Below, one piece after another: positions 1,567 through 34,275 of a stretch of DNA of 34,275 nucleotides; within the stretch, counting starts at the first letter, position 1, and each line of letters begins with the position of its first letter. The notes beneath the pieces were generated by a model. That model searched no databases and was not told where the DNA came from. It was given only the letters and a program-made list of their open reading frames with translations. The stretch comes from Prochlorococcus sp. AG-402-C22 (GTDB taxonomy: Bacteria > Cyanobacteriota > Cyanobacteriia > PCC-6307 > Cyanobiaceae). The stretch covers positions 1-34,275 of the forward strand of contig QCHO01000012.1 in the NCBI GenBank assembly GCA_003279535.1. Direction: 5' to 3'. Both the position numbers and the translations under genes were made by a program.

Positions 1567-2099
1567 TTGAATTCTTTAACTCCATTTAATTTATTTGTTT
1601 AATTTTAGATTTGAGAAATATTTCCATAGAGAAAACCGAATCAAGACTTAATTTGAACAGATGAGACAAAAATATAAAATTTCAAGTTGCCTTTTATTTT
1701 TCTTAACTTTAATTGTCAATTTGATACATCGATCAAAAATAAATTTTTAAAATCTTTCTAAACTTTAGTTTCTGGGAAAGAAACTTTTTATAATTTCAAA
1801 AGTAATGATCCCACTGTTATAACAATAGATTATGATGCGTTTTAAACTATAATTAAACTTTTCTTAGTGAAGTATTAATACTTAGAAATTAATCAACAAA
1901 AGCTTGTTTTGATAATGCTCCCCGAGAGTTATCCACTTTTTTAGTGTTTTTCAACAGGGTTTTCCACAATATGTTGATTAAATTAAATCTTCTATGTGCA
2001 AAATAAAATATTTTCTATTTTTTAAAAAATATATCCACATTTTGTTTTGGGGATCAGTAGGATTTTGGTGTTATTTTTTTGAAATCAAATTCTAAGCTT
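1567..2099. other. Long intergenic region containing DnaA-box-like repeats
   Basis: This is 533 bases without a convincing gene, among the longest gaps in the window. Most of it is plain AT-rich sequence. The notable part is 1929-2039, where same-strand sequences close to the DnaA box are clustered (annotated separately). The region separates the minus-strand pair 1064-1566 from the plus-strand small ORF at 2100. Confidence 0.5.
1929..2039 (+). promoter_or_regulatory. Cluster of DnaA-box-like sequences
   Basis: Three 9-mers on the plus strand resemble the DnaA box TTWTNCACA: TTATCCACT at 1929-1937 (one mismatch), TTTTCCACA at 1960-1968 (perfect) and ATATCCACA at 2031-2039 (one mismatch). A fourth, TTTTCAACA at 1948-1956, is weaker. 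TCAACA (1951-1956) and TGTTGA (1972-1977) form an inverted repeat around the perfect box. An AT-rich stretch lies between the second and third boxes. The local pattern looks like a bacterial replication-origin or DnaA-titration site. Chance matches are common in AT-rich DNA, so this is a candidate only. Confidence 0.4.
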
Positions 2100-7963: not shown

Positions 7964-8197
7964 TTAAGATGCTTCAGGAGAAAATATCGTTCTATTTTTT
8001 TGCCAATACTCACAACCTTTAAGTAAATGATCGCCCTGCGGTATACGTTTTTCGTATCTTGGACAGATCAAAACAGTAGCAAAAGTTTCTGTAGTGCTGT
8101 AGCGAAATTGATTGCAAGTAATACAAATCTTTGTTCGTTTTCGTTTTAGGGTAGATTCTTTTAGATATTCCCATTTTGACGGATTTACCTTGATCAT
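7964..8197 (-). CDS. Small Cys-rich, probably zinc-binding protein
   Basis: This is a 77-residue basic protein with a Lys/Arg-rich N-terminus (SKWEYLKESTLKRKRTK) followed by four cysteines: CITC (about residues 25-28), then C in LICPRYEKRIPQG and C in LLKGCEYW. A CxxC pair plus two spaced cysteines would suit one zinc site. The HLLKGCEYWQKN segment resembles a family of small cyanobacterial proteins of unknown role. It starts 2 bp after the stop of the DUF1651 gene at 8200-8490 and is clearly co-transcribed with it. A second overlapping frame (8019-8222) is rejected. The binding partner, DNA or protein, is unknown. Confidence 0.6.
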   Translation of the reverse strand: MIKVNPSKWEYLKESTLKRKRTKICITCNQFRYSTTETFATVLICPRYEKRIPQGDHLLKGCEYWQKNRTIFSPEAS

Positions 8198-8199
8198 GA

Positions 8200-8490
8200 T
8201 TACTGAAATTTATTAGTAACAATTTGCCAACCTCCTGAAATTAATTCATTCCAGGTTTCACAAGCACACTCAATAGGATGAAGTCTTGTATTTTTAATTT
8301 GGGCTGGTTCACCTAATTCATTTGCATAGAAAAGGTGAGTATATACTTTTAAGTTATTAGATACAGATTTCTTATAACTCTCAAAATAAATTAATAAACC
8401 ACTTTTTTGGTTAAACAACCAGCCAGTTGGGGGGTCAATAAGGCTGCCACGATAAAAATTAGTCCGAACATTAGCGACTCCTGAAGTCAT
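8200..8490 (-). CDS. DUF1651 family protein, copy A
   Basis: This is a 96-residue soluble protein with the layout of DUF1651, a family largely confined to marine picocyanobacteria: an N-terminal WTNF-like start (here VRTNFYRG), PPTGWLFN, a strand on LLIYF, then FYANELGEPAQIKNTRLH and a terminal helix ending SGGWQIV. It matches copy B at 10779-11078 along its length (TNF, P-x-GWL, YAN-x-LGEP, IK, W, GW). Function is unknown. It is read from a strong sigma-70-type promoter with a LexA-box-like palindrome overlapping the likely transcription start. It heads a two-gene cassette with the Cys-rich protein at 7964. Confidence 0.75.
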   Translation of the reverse strand: MTSGVANVRTNFYRGSLIDPPTGWLFNQKSGLLIYFESYKKSVSNNLKVYTHLFYANELGEPAQIKNTRLHPIECACETWNELISGGWQIVTNKFQ

Positions 8491-8496
8491 GAAGAT

Positions 8497-8510
8497 AATA
8501 CAGTTGTACT
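8497..8510 (-). promoter_or_regulatory. LexA-box-like palindrome, cassette A
   Basis: On the minus strand the 14-mer AGTACAACTGTATT fits the cyanobacterial LexA consensus RGTACNNNDGTWCB at every defined position but one (T for C at position 13). It lies immediately downstream of the -10 box, where a repressor would block initiation. The same box with the same mismatch occurs at 11087-11100. Confidence 0.5.
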
Positions 8511-8513
8511 ATT

Positions 8514-8542
8514 AATATAAATGTACTACTCATAGACGTCAA
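8514..8542 (-). promoter_or_regulatory. Sigma-70-type promoter of DUF1651 cassette A
   Basis: The -35 is TTGACG (8542-8537) and the -10 is TATATT (8519-8514), with a 17-base spacer, reading leftward. Both hexamers are identical to those of the promoter at 11104-11133. Confidence 0.65.
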
Positions 8543-8679
8543 GTATTCCTCTAGGTAATTATTTAAATACGAAAATTACTTTTCAGAAATAAACAACTTT
8601 AAATTTCTTATTTGGTAATAGCGAATACAAGTAAGTCCTTCAATGGGAAAATATCATTAAAGAACAATTCAAAAATAAA

Positions 8680-8907
8680 ATGTATCGAAATCCCTTCTAT
8701 TTAGGATGGAATAAAGGTTGGTCTTTTCTATTCTTTTTAGAAGGTGGCGTAGCAAAAATAGAAGCAAAAGGTTTTGGTATATCTATTACAACAAAAGTGA
8801 AAAAGGGGGAATCACCCTTAGAATCTGCAGATAGATTAGTTTTTAAAGAACAAAGGATAAGAAAATCAAGATATTATTCTTGGATTAGATCCATTAATGA
8901 AAAATAA
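8680..8907 (+). CDS. Hypothetical protein (75 aa)
   Basis: This is a basic protein beginning MYRNPFYLGWNKGWSFLFFL. An N-terminal hydrophobic/aromatic stretch (SFLFFLEGGVAKIEA) leads into an alternating-residue strand region (FGISITTKVKKGESP) and a basic helix (RLVFKEQRIRKSRYYSWI). A single membrane contact is possible but the hydrophobic run is short. The family is not recognised. It is divergent from DUF1651 cassette A, with about 190 bp between them. Confidence 0.45.
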   Translation: MYRNPFYLGWNKGWSFLFFLEGGVAKIEAKGFGISITTKVKKGESPLESADRLVFKEQRIRKSRYYSWIRSINEK

Positions 8908-8984
8908 TAAATTAAGGTAGTCCTTAAATTATTAAAGTAATTTGTTGCAAATCAATTTAGAATAAAGTTAATTATTTATTTTCT

Positions 8985-9242
8985 GTGTCCAATAAATTTT
9001 ATGAATGGTGGAAAAACCATAGAAAAGTTGTAGCCTATGGGGCTTTTATCATCTTATTTGGTTTTTATTTATCTCCTGTTGTCAAAGAAGCAAAGTATAA
9101 AAACCAATGCATTAAGTACTCTACTAAAGGAGCATTAACTAAATTTAATAAAGACGATATTGGAGAAACTTTATTAGAAGAAACAGGTTTGAACATTGAT
9201 GAACTAGCAAAGATTGAAGGTTATAAGAATTGCATTAATTAA
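8985..9242 (+). CDS. Single-pass membrane protein with Cys tail (85 aa), GTG start
   Basis: The GTG at 8985 starts a frame with a Trp/Lys-rich N-terminus (SNKFYEWWKNHRKVV), one membrane helix at about residues 17-33 (AYGAFIILFGFYLSPVV) and an acidic tail with two cysteines (NQCIKY ... YKNCIN). By the positive-inside rule the tail would lie outside the cytoplasm, where the cysteines could pair. This topology resembles the protein at 1330-1566. Function unknown. It is the likely first gene of a plus-strand run leading to the ligase-like gene. Confidence 0.5.
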   Translation: MSNKFYEWWKNHRKVVAYGAFIILFGFYLSPVVKEAKYKNQCIKYSTKGALTKFNKDDIGETLLEETGLNIDELAKIEGYKNCIN

Positions 9243-9272
9243 ATAGTTTGCACAAATTACGATGAGTTTTAA

Positions 9273-9479
9273 ATGATAAAAGGTGTGCTTAAACTAATTT
9301 TGTTAATATTATTATTTGGATTTATATCAATAAGTCCAAAAGCAAGATATGTGGTTGGCATATCTCTAAAACAAATTTCTTCATTTCTTTTATGGACTGT
9401 TAAATATGAAGATAGAGAAAAATGGATTATAGATAAACCAAGTTGGATACCAAGCCAAAGACTTAAGCCATCGTATTAA
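9273..9479 (+). CDS. Membrane-anchored small protein (68 aa)
   Basis: The N-terminus carries a hydrophobic helix (about residues 4-21, GVLKLILLILLFGFISIS) followed by basic and aromatic sequence (VKYEDREKWIIDKPSWIPSQ) and the ending RLKPSY. It is probably an uncleaved anchor with a short cytoplasmic or peripheral tail. The family is not recognised. Its stop TAA abuts the ATG of the ligase-like gene at 9480 with no gap, so translation of the two is likely coupled. Confidence 0.5.
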   Translation: MIKGVLKLILLILLFGFISISPKARYVVGISLKQISSFLLWTVKYEDREKWIIDKPSWIPSQRLKPSY

Positions 9480-10229
9480 ATGAAGACTTATTTAGAAGAA
9501 AGAATTGAATGGTATGACGATAATTATAGAAATGGTAATGCTTTAATTTCTGATAAGCAGTTTGACCAACTTGAAAAGAACTTATTAAGAACAAACCCTA
9601 ATTGTGATTACTTTAAAAAGAAAAATAAACTAGTTTTGCCCTCCTTAGAGAAGGATTCAATAGATGAATTTTTGAAAGGATTATTACCAGATACCAAATT
9701 ATTAATTGAGCCTAAAATTGATGGATGTGCTGTTGCTTTGCAATATAGAGAAGGAACCTTGGAAAAAGCAATTTCAAGAAACGGAACTGACGTCACTAGT
9801 AAACTAATAAAAGTACGAGACATTCCAAAGCATTTTCCCTTACGAGGAGTTCTTCAAGTGAGGGGTGAATTATACTCACCCAGCCAAACTCCAAATATCT
9901 CTCAAAGAATCGCCTCTGGATTTCTGCGAGCAAAAGAAGGATTTTCTGAAAGTCTTAGCTTCTGCGCATTTCAAATACTTAATTCAAAACTTAACCAATA
10001 TGAGTCCAAAAAGAGTCTTTCTAAGCTAGGCTTCAAGACCCCTGAGGATATTTCGTGCAACTTTACTAGCCAAGTTCAAGTATTAAGAAAACATTGGCTG
10101 GAAGGGAAGCTTTTTAGGAACTATCCAACAGATGGAATAGTAGTAAAGATAAATTCTAGAAAATTACAATTAATTAGAGAAAAATCAAATTTAGATTATC
10201 CTTATTGGCAAGTTGCAATAAAACATTAA
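9480..10229 (+). CDS. NAD+-dependent DNA ligase-like protein: NMN-binding and adenylation domains only
   Basis: This is a 249-residue protein matching the N-terminal third of bacterial LigA (about 670 residues). Residues 1-45 fit domain Ia, which binds the nicotinamide part of NAD+ (ISDKQFDQLEKNLL, with Phe where LigA usually has Tyr). The nucleotidyltransferase core follows: KIDG (about residues 79-82, with the AMP-accepting Lys), SRNGTDVT, RGELY, TDGIVVKIN, and PYWQVAIKH at the very end (the PxWxxAxK motif). The OB fold, zinc finger, HhH and BRCT domains are absent, not merely broken: the stop comes right after the last adenylation motif. It can plausibly self-adenylate but should not seal nicks alone. 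Coupled to the membrane gene upstream and overlapping the microgene downstream. Confidence 0.85.
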   Translation: MKTYLEERIEWYDDNYRNGNALISDKQFDQLEKNLLRTNPNCDYFKKKNKLVLPSLEKDSIDEFLKGLLPDTKLLIEPKIDGCAVALQYREGTLEKAISRNGTDVTSKLIKVRDIPKHFPLRGVLQVRGELYSPSQTPNISQRIASGFLRAKEGFSESLSFCAFQILNSKLNQYESKKSLSKLGFKTPEDISCNFTSQVQVLRKHWLEGKLFRNYPTDGIVVKINSRKLQLIREKSNLDYPYWQVAIKH

Positions 10230-10342
10230 TGGAATTAATACACCAAGTTTTTCCTTCTTGGCATATTTACTTGGATATGTTTCTGGTTGGTTTTGGAACC
10301 TACTGTTTTCTAAGGATTAAGAAAAAAATAAAAACCAAATGA
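10229..10342 (+). CDS. Membrane microprotein (37 aa)
   Basis: The ATG at 10229 shares its A with the TAA of the ligase-like gene. The 37 codons encode MELIHQVFPSWHIYLDMFLV then GFGTYCFLRIKKKIKTK: one membrane helix with a strongly basic, presumably cytoplasmic tail. The overlap shows it belongs to the same operon as the ligase-like protein. The family is not recognised. Confidence 0.5.
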   Translation: MELIHQVFPSWHIYLDMFLVGFGTYCFLRIKKKIKTK

Positions 10343-10493
10343 ATAATTCTTAAATAAAGAATGAGATTCCAGCGACGATAGACTTAAAGTTTTGATAAAA
10401 AATTATTCTTTTAAGGAAAATATAAACAAAATATTAAATCCTTTTTTTGAATTCAAAAATCGCCACATATTATATAATTCCATAAATAGAATT

Positions 10494-10529
10494 CTTAAAT
10501 CATCCATGGTCATTAAGCATGGATTTAAG
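10494..10529. repeat. Imperfect inverted repeat
   Basis: CTTAAATC-AT-CCATG (10494-10508) pairs with CATGGATTTAAG (10518-10529), a 12-13 bp stem with a 2-base bulge and 9-base loop. It overlaps the stop of the minus-strand gene at 10500. No T run follows on either strand, so it is not a standard terminator. It may stabilise the 3' end of the mRNA. Confidence 0.4.
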
Positions 10530-10658
10530 TTGTTCGCTATCTAGTTGCTCGAGATAATTTCTCATTGCCAACCAAGATCTTCTACTTTCTAACTTTCCGC
10601 TTCGTTTAAATAAATTTGCGGAAACTTGATCTATCAATTCTTTATGTGTCATATTCAT
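10500..10658 (-). CDS. Small helical basic protein (52 aa)
   Basis: The ATG at 10658 (alternative 10652) opens 52 codons: MNMTHKELIDQVSANLFKRS, GKLESRRSWLAMRNYLEQLD and a short end MLNDHG. It is all-helical, soluble and basic, with a helix-turn-helix-like spacing that is not strong enough for a family call. It overlaps the end of the 46-aa gene at 10642-10782 and is the third gene of the DUF1651 copy B cassette. Function unknown. Confidence 0.5.
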   Translation of the reverse strand: MNMTHKELIDQVSANLFKRSGKLESRRSWLAMRNYLEQLDSEQLKSMLNDHG

Positions 10659-10782
10659 ATTCTTCATCTAGTTCAATTACAACACCATTAAAAAATTCTG
10701 CTAATAATTTTGATGGGTCTTGTATAGATATCTTTTTATCTACTTTTGATAATTTCTTTTTGATTGGATTTAAGTTAGTCAT
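10642..10782 (-). CDS. Small protein (46 aa) coupled to DUF1651 copy B
   Basis: The ATG at 10782 overlaps the TGA of the DUF1651 gene (ATGA). The product has a basic N-terminal half (MTNLNPIKKKLSKVDKKI) and a hydrophobic, then acidic C-terminal half (LLAEFFNGVVIELDEEYEYD). The opposite charges at the two ends are its most distinctive trait. No family is recognised. It sits between DUF1651 copy B and the 52-aa gene in a chain of overlapping frames. Confidence 0.5.
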   Translation of the reverse strand: MTNLNPIKKKLSKVDKKISIQDPSKLLAEFFNGVVIELDEEYEYDT

Positions 10783-11078
10783 ACTGATTCAGGTAATTCA
10801 AGTTCTTCAAAAGTCCAGCCTTCTAATTGAAGGTCATGCCATTTATCCCAAGCATTATCCAAATACATTTGAGTTGATGATTTAATTGCCATTGGCTCAC
10901 CAAGATCATTTGCATAATATGTATGAGCAAAAATCCTCATACTATTTCTTGTAGATTTTTTATTCCTTGTAAATAAAATTAATCTGCTGCGGTCTGGGCT
11001 AAGCAACCAACCACTTGGGGTCTCATTACGATAACCGTAAGAAAAATTAGTCCAAACATTAGCCCCTCCTAAAGTCAT
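10779..11078 (-). CDS. DUF1651 family protein, copy B
   Basis: This is a 99-residue soluble protein showing the DUF1651 features more clearly than copy A: VWTNFSYG, TPSGWLLS, the strand LILFTRN, YANDLGEPMAIKSS, then the W-rich helix DNAWDKWHDLQLEGW. The molecular role of the family is not known. It is read from the same type of promoter as copy A, with the same LexA-box-like operator, and heads a three-gene overlapping cassette (10500-11078). Shared promoter and protein sequence indicate duplication of a regulated unit whose downstream partners then differed. Confidence 0.8.
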   Translation of the reverse strand: MTLGGANVWTNFSYGYRNETPSGWLLSPDRSRLILFTRNKKSTRNSMRIFAHTYYANDLGEPMAIKSSTQMYLDNAWDKWHDLQLEGWTFEELELPESV

Positions 11079-11086
11079 TACTTAGT

Positions 11087-11100
11087 AATACATGTGTACT
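11087..11100 (-). promoter_or_regulatory. LexA-box-like palindrome, cassette B
   Basis: On the minus strand the 14-mer AGTACACATGTATT matches the cyanobacterial LexA consensus RGTACNNNDGTWCB except at position 13, the same exception as at 8497-8510. It begins directly after the TATATT -10 box region. Confidence 0.5.
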
Positions 11101-11103
11101 ATT

Positions 11104-11133
11104 AATATAAGTGCATTAGAAATAGATCGTCAA
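11104..11133 (-). promoter_or_regulatory. Sigma-70-type promoter of DUF1651 cassette B
   Basis: The -35 is TTGACG (11133-11128) and the -10 is TATATT (11109-11104), with an 18-base spacer, reading leftward. It is identical in both hexamers to the promoter at 8514-8542. Confidence 0.65.
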
Positions 11134-11190: not shown

Positions 11191-11242
11191 CTAAAAAATA
11201 AAAAGCCTCCAAGAACTCAGTCGTTACAACTGTTCTTAGAGG
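11191..11242 (-). terminator. Strong rho-independent terminator after 6S RNA
   Basis: Read on the minus strand, CCTC-T-AAGAAC (11242-11232) pairs with GTTCTT-G-GAGG (11216-11206), with AGT/ACT pairs further inside, followed by CTTTTTATTTTTT. It ends the purK-6S RNA transcript. Confidence 0.85.
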
Positions 11243-11425
11243 TATACCGGATCCCCGTCAGTTCTCTGCTGCATCGACCTGGAAATGCCAGAAGAGGATT
11301 CAAAGTGGGCTTTCGTTTCCGATTACAAGATCGGTTTACTACCGCATCACGACAGTCTCCTCATGTCGAAAGAGAGTCAGATCAGAGCACATAAAGAAGA
11401 ACTTAACCAAAGACCCAGTGCCTTA
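11240..11425 (-). ncRNA. ssrS: 6S RNA (cyanobacterial, downstream of purK)
   Basis: This 185-base region is clearly richer in G and C than its surroundings, lies right after purK on the same strand, and ends at a strong terminator. In cyanobacteria 6S RNA is characteristically next to purK. The fold fits: a long rod closed by CGAC/GTCG (11365-11368 with 11275-11278) and TCCTC/GAGGA (11358-11362 with 11294-11298), a terminal hairpin CCGAT-CTTGTA-ATCGG (11334-11319), and a small hairpin CTGG-CATTT-CCAG (11291-11279) on the 3' side of the central bubble. 6S RNA mimics an open promoter and sequesters RNA polymerase. SRP RNA, tmRNA and RNase P RNA signatures are absent. Exact ends are estimated. 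Confidence 0.75.
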
Positions 11426-32784: not shown

Positions 32785-32843
32785 ATCAATTCTTGAAACA
32801 AAGATTTCATATTAAACATAATTCTACACAAACCGTTAAATAG

Positions 32844-32914
32844 TGGTAAGAATGGTTGCAGACGCCACAGGTAGAGTTATTCTTCCAGTACGGGTTATTT
32901 ACATACTTTTTTTT
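32844..32914 (+). promoter_or_regulatory. Candidate structured leader upstream of nrdJ
   Basis: A 9-bp stem with a 1-base bulge, TGG-T-AAGAAT (32844-32853) with ATTCTTCCA (32879-32887), is followed by a weak AGTA/TACT stem (32887-32890 with 32904-32907) running into eight T (32907-32914), just before the GTG at 32918. It may be an attenuator-like leader. I see no standard B12-box or other named riboswitch. It is supported only by folding by eye. Confidence 0.3.
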
Positions 32915-32917
32915 ATC

Positions 32918-34275
32918 GTGACTGTTGCACCAAATAAAGCTTCTTCAGAAAGCAATTCCAATAATCTTAAAAAAGATGATTTTCCAAAGACTGCGCCAGC
33001 TGCTTATCCTGTTTTTTTCAGATCTTACAGTAGAAAAACTGCCTCTGGCAAAAGGGAGAACTGGAGTGAAGTAGGTGAAAGAAATTTATCGGGCTTAAAA
33101 GAATTAGGAAAACTTTCTGATGAAGAATTAATCCTAATGAGAGAGATGCAAAGCAACCAAAAAGCCCAACCTTCAGGGAGATGGTTATGGATTGGAGGAA
33201 CTCCTTGGATTAACAAAAACCAAAATTTCTCTGGGGCATACAACTGTACTTCAACAAACTTAATTGATTGGGAAGCCTTCGCTTTGATGATGGACTTAGC
33301 AATGATGGGATGTGGAACAGGTGCAATAATTGAGCCTCATTTTATAAATAATCTACCTACGGTAATAAACAAAATAAATATTAAATCAGTTAGTGAAGTT
33401 GGAATAACTCCTAAAGATCAAAGAGAAGAAAAATCATCATTAGAAATTAAAGGAAAAGATCTTCATATCAAAGTTGGGGATAGCAGAAGAGGGTGGGTAG
33501 ATAGCTATAAATATCTTCTTGAGGCATCAAGTAACGAGAATCTTGAAAGAGAAATTGATGTTTATATTAATTTGGAAGATATTAGGCCTGCTGGAGAATC
33601 ATTAAAAGGTTTTGGTGGTATGGCAAATCCTATCAAATTGAAAGATCTTTACTCTAGAGTCGCATCACTTCTTGGAAAGGCAATTGGCAGGAAATTAAGT
33701 ACAGTAGAGTGTTGTTTATTAATTGATGAAGCTGCAGTAACCATAGTTGCTGGGAATATAAGAAGAAGTGCTGGAATGAGACAATTTGCTTCAGATGATA
33801 ATGAAGCAGCATCGGCAAAAGAAAATTTATGGAGTCAAGATGACAATGGTAATTGGAGAATAGATCCTGAAAAAGATGCCCTCAGGATGGCTAATCATAC
33901 TAGGGTTTATCATACAAAACCCACTTACCAAACTGTTTTGGATGCTGTAACAAAACAATTCCATTCAGGTGAGGGAGCTATTCAATTTGCTCCAGAAGCA
34001 ATCGCAAGGTCAAATGCAGATATTCTCAAAGATGATGAATTGAGAAAGGAATTTATTGAAATCTACTCAGAACAAGGTAAGGATGAAGCGAGGAATTGGA
34101 TAAATAGTAGTTATGGTCCATTCTCTGAAGAAGAGTTAGACCACAGGATGAGCAGATATGGACTTAACCCTTGTGGGGAGATTTTGGGAAATGATTTCCA
34201 CTGCAATTTGGCTGAAGTTCATTTAAATCAGATTGATCCTGGCAATTTTGAAGAGCAAAAAAAAGCTTTTAAAGC
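32918..34275 (+). CDS. nrdJ: Class II (adenosylcobalamin-dependent) ribonucleotide reductase, 5' part
   Basis: The frame is open to the window end, with about 452 codons visible. GTG at 32918 (MTVAPNKASSESNSNNLKK) is preferred over an in-frame ATG at 32852, whose 22 extra codons look like leader rather than protein. The enzyme makes deoxyribonucleotides using a cobalamin radical. Visible motifs: TAPAAYPVFFRSYSRK, PSGRWLWIGGTPWI, SGAYNCTSTNLIDW (active-site Cys), MMGCGTGAIIEPHF, SGEGAIQFAPEAIARSN and NPCGEILGNDFHCNLAEVHL (radical-site Cys and Glu of NPCGE). These fit the monomeric Lactobacillus-type triphosphate reductase. The C-terminal part lies outside the window. Confidence 0.93.
   Translation, partial: MTVAPNKASSESNSNNLKKDDFPKTAPAAYPVFFRSYSRKTASGKRENWSEVGERNLSGLKELGKLSDEELILMREMQSNQKAQPSGRWLWIGGTPWINKNQNFSGAYNCTSTNLIDWEAFALMMDLAMMGCGTGAIIEPHFINNLPTVINKINIKSVSEVGITPKDQREEKSSLEIKGKDLHIKVGDSRRGWVDSYKYLLEASSNENLEREIDVYINLEDIRPAGESLKGFGGMANPIKLKDLYSRVASLLGKAIGRKLSTVECCLLIDEAAVTIVAGNIRRSAGMRQFASDDNEAASAKENLWSQDDNGNWRIDPEKDALRMANHTRVYHTKPTYQTVLDAVTKQFHSGEGAIQFAPEAIARSNADILKDDELRKEFIEIYSEQGKDEARNWINSSYGPFSEEELDHRMSRYGLNPCGEILGNDFHCNLAEVHLNQIDPGNFEEQKKAFK

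Follow-up and report, generated by a model that had tools for sequence, protein, structure and literature searches.

Two operons on the minus strand of a 34,275-nucleotide contig of Prochlorococcus sp. AG-402-C22 (QCHO01000012.1, in its entirety the window analysed here) begin with genes of DUF1651 (PF07864), a family of no assigned function, and each is preceded by a 14-nucleotide box of the type recognized by LexA, the repressor of the SOS response. We conclude that both operons very probably belong to the Prochlorococcus LexA (SOS) regulon, a reading to which we assign a probability of roughly 0.88, because the box is specific at the level of whole genomes, is conserved ahead of the long DUF1651 subfamily and at the loci most closely related to the window, and recurs in other genera of the family. 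From the box, its position, its conservation and its sharing with lexA and recA, all seen directly in the genomes, we infer a start of transcription beneath it, binding by LexA and induction by DNA damage. LexA dimers occupying the 14-mer where transcription begins would hold the operons off; activation of RecA by single-stranded DNA would lead to self-cleavage of LexA, and the operons would then be transcribed, one yielding type-1 DUF1651 and a cysteine-rich protein, the other type-2 DUF1651 and the products of two small conserved ORFs. The relevant elements, including the open reading frames (ORFs), are as follows:

8200..8490, minus strand: DUF1651 protein, long subfamily, type 1, 96 amino acids (PF07864, 50.2 bits against a cut-off of 22)
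7964..8197, minus strand: cysteine-rich partner of 77 amino acids with the pattern CxxC...C...C ('C4 protein'), starting 2 nucleotides after the type-1 stop
8514..8542, minus strand: type-1 promoter, TTGACG - 17 nucleotides - TATATT (-35 at 8542-8537, -10 at 8519-8514), read from the sequence
8497..8510, minus strand: LexA-type box AGTACAACTGTATT, starting 3 nucleotides after the -10 and ending 6 nucleotides before the ATG
8514..8527, minus strand: second box-like site AGTACATTTATATT, with one mismatch, overlapping the -10; a possible tandem operator
10779..11078, minus strand: DUF1651 protein, long subfamily, type 2, 99 amino acids (PF07864, 42.6 bits against a cut-off of 22)
10642..10782, minus strand: conserved ORF of 46 amino acids, its start overlapping the type-2 stop (ATGA)
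10500..10667, minus strand: conserved ORF of 55 amino acids, its start overlapping the 46-residue ORF
11104..11133, minus strand: type-2 promoter, TTGACG - 18 nucleotides - TATATT (-35 at 11133-11128, -10 at 11109-11104)
11087..11100, minus strand: LexA-type box AGTACACATGTATT, starting 3 nucleotides after the -10 and ending 8 nucleotides before the ATG

The first operon comprises the type-1 gene and the C4 protein, for which no Pfam or NCBIfam family was matched, and the second the type-2 gene followed by the 46- and 55-residue ORFs. A preliminary description of this DNA had placed DUF1651 genes at the head of both operons, with identical promoter hexamers and, just downstream of each -10, a 14-mer departing from the LexA consensus at one position, and its coordinates, domain assignments, hexamers and 14-mers are all borne out on inspection. 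Since each box starts 3 nucleotides past the -10 and stops 6 or 8 nucleotides short of the ATG, it probably covers the predicted transcription start, a usual position for a repressor. Both boxes miss the consensus RGTACNNNDGTWCB by a T in place of C near the 3' end, and the identical T deviation is found in the source genome's own lexA box, GGTACATTTGTATT; the published Prochlorococcus LexA box reads TAGTACA-N2-TGTACTA. The LexA protein encoded in the source genome has both Pfam domains, together with the AG, Ser and Lys motifs that mark a LexA able to cleave itself; the roles of these motifs have been described (PMC2921402). The source lexA promoter, like the type-1 DUF1651 promoter (8514-8527), has two tandem box-like sites 16-17 bp apart.

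A search pattern, RGTACANNTGTAYT, was built when the published Prochlorococcus LexA sites and the two window sites were already known. Being partly constructed from them, it matches the window sites by design; the recA and lexA matches and the conservation counts given below do not depend on the window-derived part of its design. In the draft source genome (1,171,404 bases, 81% complete, of which the window is one contig) the pattern has six distinct exact sites, two of them in the window, and none when read backwards over the same sequence, the control used throughout. These six sites precede recA, lexA, both window DUF1651 genes, an ORF of 68 amino acids, and a pair formed by a 76-residue ORF and a divergent epimerase-like gene. 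The chance of at least two of six random sites falling within 120 bp upstream of four DUF1651 genes is about 2.5e-6. Looser matching is far less informative: with up to two mismatches the window holds 17 matches against 9.0 expected, a weak contrast in that 2 of 100 shuffles reach 17, and matches of this kind carry little meaning. A one-mismatch box at 33237-33250, inside a long plus-strand ORF (32843-34273), is probably due to chance.

The same specificity is seen when the source genome is taken together with four complete genomes of the genus (G015, G049, G021 and G040). In these five, 33 distinct exact sites were found (39 strand matches; backward control 3), and a reading of the nearest ORF starts assigned ten of them to DUF1651 genes, five to lexA, five to the epimerase-like/76-residue pair, four to recA, four to ORFs of 65-68 amino acids and four to C4-type genes, leaving one unassigned inside another ORF. 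One of the ten DUF1651 sites stands at a truncated or broken type-3 gene, and the C4-type gene of G021 is a looser relative. The exact pattern precedes lexA in all five genomes and recA in four of five, the recA box lying 81-84 nucleotides before the ATG in those four, and the lexA box 16-17 nucleotides before the start in four of the five. Relatives of the C4 protein that stand alone have an exact box of their own, and this is therefore an independent sign of control shared with DUF1651. In G015 the box precedes a three-gene run consisting of type 1, a 45-residue ORF and the C4 protein.

Other genes with the site form a small and recurrent group. Between the epimerase-like gene and its divergent small neighbor, whose product ends in C-x-VW, an exact box is present in all five genus genomes and in five of six scanned genomes of other genera. 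A family of 65-71 amino acids starting SSPYA.F or SASPYA.F has an exact box ahead of it in several genera, and the single copy scanned was matched by no family of Pfam or NCBIfam. An ORF that by eye is DprA-like is preceded by an exact box in two larger genomes (G174 and G161).

Conservation of the box was followed across the genus, where the PF07864 profile matched 100 of 101 genomes searched (99 over the cut-off) and a long-subfamily query matched 92 of 101. A subset of the listed matches was fetched, including 80 stretches picked by position and not by box, so that twins, divergent copies and short forms would all be represented. A profile search of the fetched loci gave 193 DUF1651 frames, and removal of duplicates left 160 rows with distinct upstream regions; types were assigned by signature words in the protein, and the box was sought from 120 bp before to 20 bp after the domain start. 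Of 123 upstream regions of the long subfamily (about 96-100 amino acids), 121 have the box when one mismatch is allowed, 106 of them exactly, a result that holds for type 1 (60/61, 52 exact), type 2 (46/46, 43 exact) and type 3 (15/16, 11 exact) alike. Among 2,460 dinucleotide shuffles of these regions none matched exactly and 11 came within one mismatch. The two misses are the second half of a broken gene (L089) and one type-3 gene (L122, two mismatches). Position is likewise maintained, with 111 of the 121 boxes starting at -19 to -23 and the remainder farther upstream, among them four type-1 rows that match only at the second, -10-overlapping site and one fragment with its site at -116.

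The short DUF1651 subfamily presents the opposite picture, with a box (at most one mismatch) in 1 of 37 upstream regions, a count that applies to the zone near the gene and leaves promoters farther up outside it; its shuffles gave no exact match and 2 of 740 with at most one mismatch. Even the lone match is the first half of the frame-broken long type-1 gene L089, whose box is intact. The contrast between long and short subfamilies has a Fisher value of 3e-32, which ignores relatedness. A comparison of Prochlorococcus DUF1651 promoters with randomised ones, as the preliminary description had proposed, finds the box kept, and SOS control, which had been suggested for DUF1651 at large, would on these counts apply to the long subfamily but not to the family as a whole within the genus.

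A closer view is offered by what we term the named loci, the best 80 of 239 genome contig loci, all close to the query, from which 78 type-1 and 75 type-2 upstream regions could be extracted. Permitting A or G at one arm position, the box is present in 71 of the 78 and in all 75, respectively; of the seven type-1 misses six differ from the box at a single position and the seventh reflects a wrongly called start. Over all 78 type-1 rows the box columns are 0.90-0.96 conserved, save for one central base (0.81), while the adjoining spacer is at 0.54-0.78. Anchoring on the box raises the type-1 arms to 0.999, a figure that covers box-matching upstream regions only and is near-perfect partly by construction. 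The second, -10-overlapping type-1 site reaches about 0.94-0.96 per column in the 78 upstream regions and is as conserved as the box itself, although the -10 element alone could explain part of this.

Beyond the genus, 45 genomes from other genera of the family were searched with the long-subfamily alignment, and 31 of them matched. Among 30 loci examined, 3 have an exact box and 19 (exact ones included) a box with at most one mismatch, counts given here without a shuffle control. A further 20 DUF1651 stretches from other genera, of which two were chosen in the knowledge of an adjoining site and two represent places already among the 30, gave 8 exact boxes and 11 with at most one mismatch. The link between box and DUF1651, as judged from these upstream regions, extends past the genus and is not universal there.

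Both DUF1651 types lie within 3 kb of each other in the window, adjoining purK and 6S RNA. Other features of the window are the following:

11240..11424, minus strand: 6S RNA (Rfam RF00013, 90 bits), the neighbor that fixes synteny with strain MED4 (purK - 6S - DUF1651)
9480..10229, plus strand: 249-residue adenylation protein of the NAD-ligase type with a KIDG motif (PF01653, 67 bits)
1812..2070, minus strand: Yfr17 small RNA (Rfam, 99.5 bits)

Genome G015 is taken as strain MED4, and the 6S RNA and Cyano-1 matches in its locus coincide with the coordinates published for yfr7 and yfr3. Because PMM0684 of MED4 comes next after yfr7 in the published table, we identify it as the type-1 DUF1651 gene at G015:652944, which has an exact box, lies beside 6S RNA and is by sequence type the counterpart of the window type-1 gene. 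The type-2 gene of G015, which lies at 774 kb and likewise has an exact box, is probably PMM0819, an assignment made by gene-number interpolation only. PMM0684 and PMM0819 have been reported as DUF1651 genes that rise during infection by phage P-SSP7, and DUF1651 genes, of the same Pfam family as those of the window, count among the host-response genes of three strains (PMC5490813); PMM0684-PMM0686 were placed in group 2 or among the most upregulated phage-induced genes (PMC2518516). The former study names no regulator, and LexA, SOS, RecA and DNA damage are mentioned zero times in it. A plausible connection is that phage infection would switch the boxed genes on by way of host-DNA breakage and LexA; no report of a recA or lexA response in P-SSP7 infection was found in the portions of the literature examined.

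Several observations weigh against assigning the operons to the LexA regulon. Computationally predicted LexA targets were shown to rise with mitomycin C in only 15 of 27 cases in CC9311 and 10 of 46 in WH8102, and because so many did not respond a box alone is no proof of SOS control. Nine of the 20 additional DUF1651 upstream regions from other genera have at least two mismatches, and in six other-genus genomes only 2 of 24 exact sites read stand at DUF1651 (26 distinct sites in all; backward control 3). The type-2 footprint contrast is weak: in box-anchored rows the arms are at 0.994 and the central bases at 0.69 and 0.99, and the spacer between -35 and -10 is itself at 0.94. Finally, within the 4-kb stretch read, neither of the phage-induced genes PMM0685 and PMM0686 is preceded by its own box, even when one mismatch is allowed. 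PMM0685 may belong to the boxed operon as its third gene, but the box does not account for the induction of PMM0686.

Other explanations of the box must be set against these data. Another repressor with a LexA-like site could bind it, in which case the genes would answer a different stress, and the further small-gene families with the same box do indicate that such sites are not confined to repair genes; however, the exact pattern stands before lexA and recA in nearly all of the genus genomes scanned, and in G110 a site is followed, 117 nucleotides on, by the start of an ORF judged by eye to be S24-peptidase- or UmuD-like, so that we regard a different repressor as very unlikely. That the box is a start-site or promoter-class element, such as an initiator or an extension of the -10, with no repressor involved, would agree with its fixed distance from a conserved -35/-10 and with the good conservation of the type-2 promoter region throughout. 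Yet the box words vary mainly in two central bases across types (an argument only partly independent, the arms being fixed by the pattern), the recA and lexA boxes occur at differing distances and so conform to no single promoter layout, and the short DUF1651 genes are without the box; we consider this explanation extremely improbable.

The question of what the products do is distinct, and here it is possible, if still unlikely, that DUF1651 proteins act against or for phage and not in repair, the LexA box serving as a sensor of attack. Besides the host response in three strains, this would accord with the smaller phage yield of a WH8102 mutant in the DUF3387-DUF1651 operon (PMC5490813), but that mutant is called a DUF3387 mutant, so that any share of DUF1651 in the effect is putative, and neither DUF1651 protein is matched by a PADLOC family. 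The PADLOC scan gave no family at E values up to 1 for the C4 protein and both DUF1651 proteins; matches of the 55-residue ORF to a short part of two candidate PDC-S26 profiles (E 0.0016 and 0.0026) and of the ligase-type protein (E 0.019) are taken as chance. A phage origin of DUF1651 was considered and rejected: tblastn with a type-2 protein against 50,697 phage records returned one weak match (E 0.07, 28%, a Streptococcus satellite phage), a Synechococcus-type DUF1651 protein matched none of these records, and neither search recovered the copy that PMC5490813 names in coliphage ECBP5. The one viral-contig match resembles a locus of Prochlorococcus in which the same box and operon recur, and so is no evidence for a phage gene. 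PHROGs had nothing at E below 0.05 for DUF1651 and the small proteins, and its phage NAD-ligase families were matched by the ligase-type protein.

The preliminary description had also drawn this ligase-type gene, which does lie on the plus strand between the operons, into a damage-inducible module and labelled it a fragment. Neither suggestion fits its orthologues. Among the 80 named loci 78 orthologues were found, of which 77 are exactly 249 amino acids long and one 245, a uniformity out of keeping with decay, and none of the 78 has a box (at most one mismatch) within 200 bp upstream. A single DNA-repair module embracing both DUF1651 operons and the ligase-like gene might be supposed from the co-occurrence, irrespective of exact order, of type 1, type 2 and the ligase-type gene in 76 of the 80 loci and from the KIDG motif kept in 78 of 78 orthologues. 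The gene is nevertheless on the strand opposite to both DUF1651 types and upstream of it the box is absent, the 80 loci are close relatives, and in G015 the boxed type-1 and type-2 genes are some 120 kb apart with the short ligase ORF at 626 kb. A joint module is thus quite unlikely, and the ligase-like gene appears to be a conserved neighbor under other control, outside the module described here. In G015, G040, G049 and G021 PF01653 is found only in ORFs of 249-263 amino acids, without a full-length LigA match (4/4), and ATP-dependent ligases (PF01068) are represented in each of these genomes by two ORFs, one of about 546-548 and one of about 444-452 amino acids. G156 and G170, from other genera, have a full LigA (691 and 704 amino acids) and no PF01068 match, with short PF01653 ORFs also present in G156. 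A replicative NAD ligase besides ATP ligases has been described in some strains (PMC6698739).

Some indication of function may be sought in the predicted fold. An AlphaFold2 model of the type-2 protein, from a 22-row alignment, has a b-b-b-b-a-b core with blocks of predicted local distance difference test (pLDDT) values of 81-90 over residues 21-90, a mean of 75.6 and a low-confidence N-terminus. VIA-align placed WGR-domain chains of PARP proteins in its top seven rows, with Z of 6.0-4.8 across 71-77 residues and PARP2 accounting for five of the seven; the best has Z 6.0 with 75 aligned residues and a root-mean-square deviation of 3.5, the aligner warning that Z under 8 may reflect a common arrangement, and the next unrelated rows are at Z 4.5. 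WGR domains bind DNA breaks, an activity that would suit an SOS protein. A fold like that of the WGR domain of PARP1/2/3 is a weak lead, to which sequence profiles lend no support: a Pfam scan of the DUF1651 proteins matched DUF1651 only and no WGR (PF05406) profile, and an hhalign comparison of 47 DUF1651 rows, 43 of which entered it, with WGR sequences from cyanobacteria (17) returned only Prob 0.3. Also contrary to this lead, Foldseek ranks PUR-alpha and PC4 first, at E above 0.2, and against PDB and BFVD it has no match at E <= 0.001. A sequence search of solved structures gave two matches (E 0.067 and 0.87), taken as chance. The second and third BFVD rows are proteins without characterisation from two Synechococcus phages, S-CAM1 and S-H9-1 (probability 0.97 and 1.00, E 0.09 and 0.13, TM 0.50 to the query), and present a possible phage-encoded look-alike of DUF1651. 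The model of the C4 protein, built from close relatives, has a pLDDT of 40.7 and is of no use for reading a fold, so its putative zinc ribbon is suggested by the cysteine pattern alone.

Taking SOS-type regulation together with the WGR-like predicted fold, both weak grounds for function, our best guess is that DUF1651 proteins may be small nucleic-acid-associated damage-response proteins. A more elaborate proposal, in which they would be stand-alone WGR-like DNA-end-binding SOS effectors with co-switched cysteine-rich partners, induced via LexA by phage-broken host DNA, such that the 'phage-response' genes would be a readout of host SOS, is unlikely as a whole. The small SOS effectors of other bacteria, SulA, YneA and SidA, are small, LexA-repressed and lineage-specific, as DUF1651 would be, a likeness of description.

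DUF1651 is an added member of an already known LexA regulon and not a new kind of system. The regulon of marine picocyanobacteria has been described with the same box, common to recA and lexA (Li 2010, PMC3091678; Kolowrat 2010, PMC2921402). In the text of these two papers DUF1651 is not named, nor were PMM0684, PMM0819 or PMM0685 found; their supplementary lists, in which single genes may stand under locus tags, lay outside the search, and within that scope the link between LexA and DUF1651 is not in print as far as the literature searched extends. DNA-damage expression data for these genes were likewise not found in the portions of the literature surveyed. What the finding offers is a proposed regulator, and hence a physiological context, for a family of no assigned function present in nearly every genome of the genus searched. 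If true, the LexA box would explain simply why cyanophage infection raises DUF1651 expression, and it would yield a short candidate SOS list for these very abundant marine phototrophs, in which lexA and recA are joined by DUF1651, by the C4 protein and by two other families of small genes, likewise with no function assigned.

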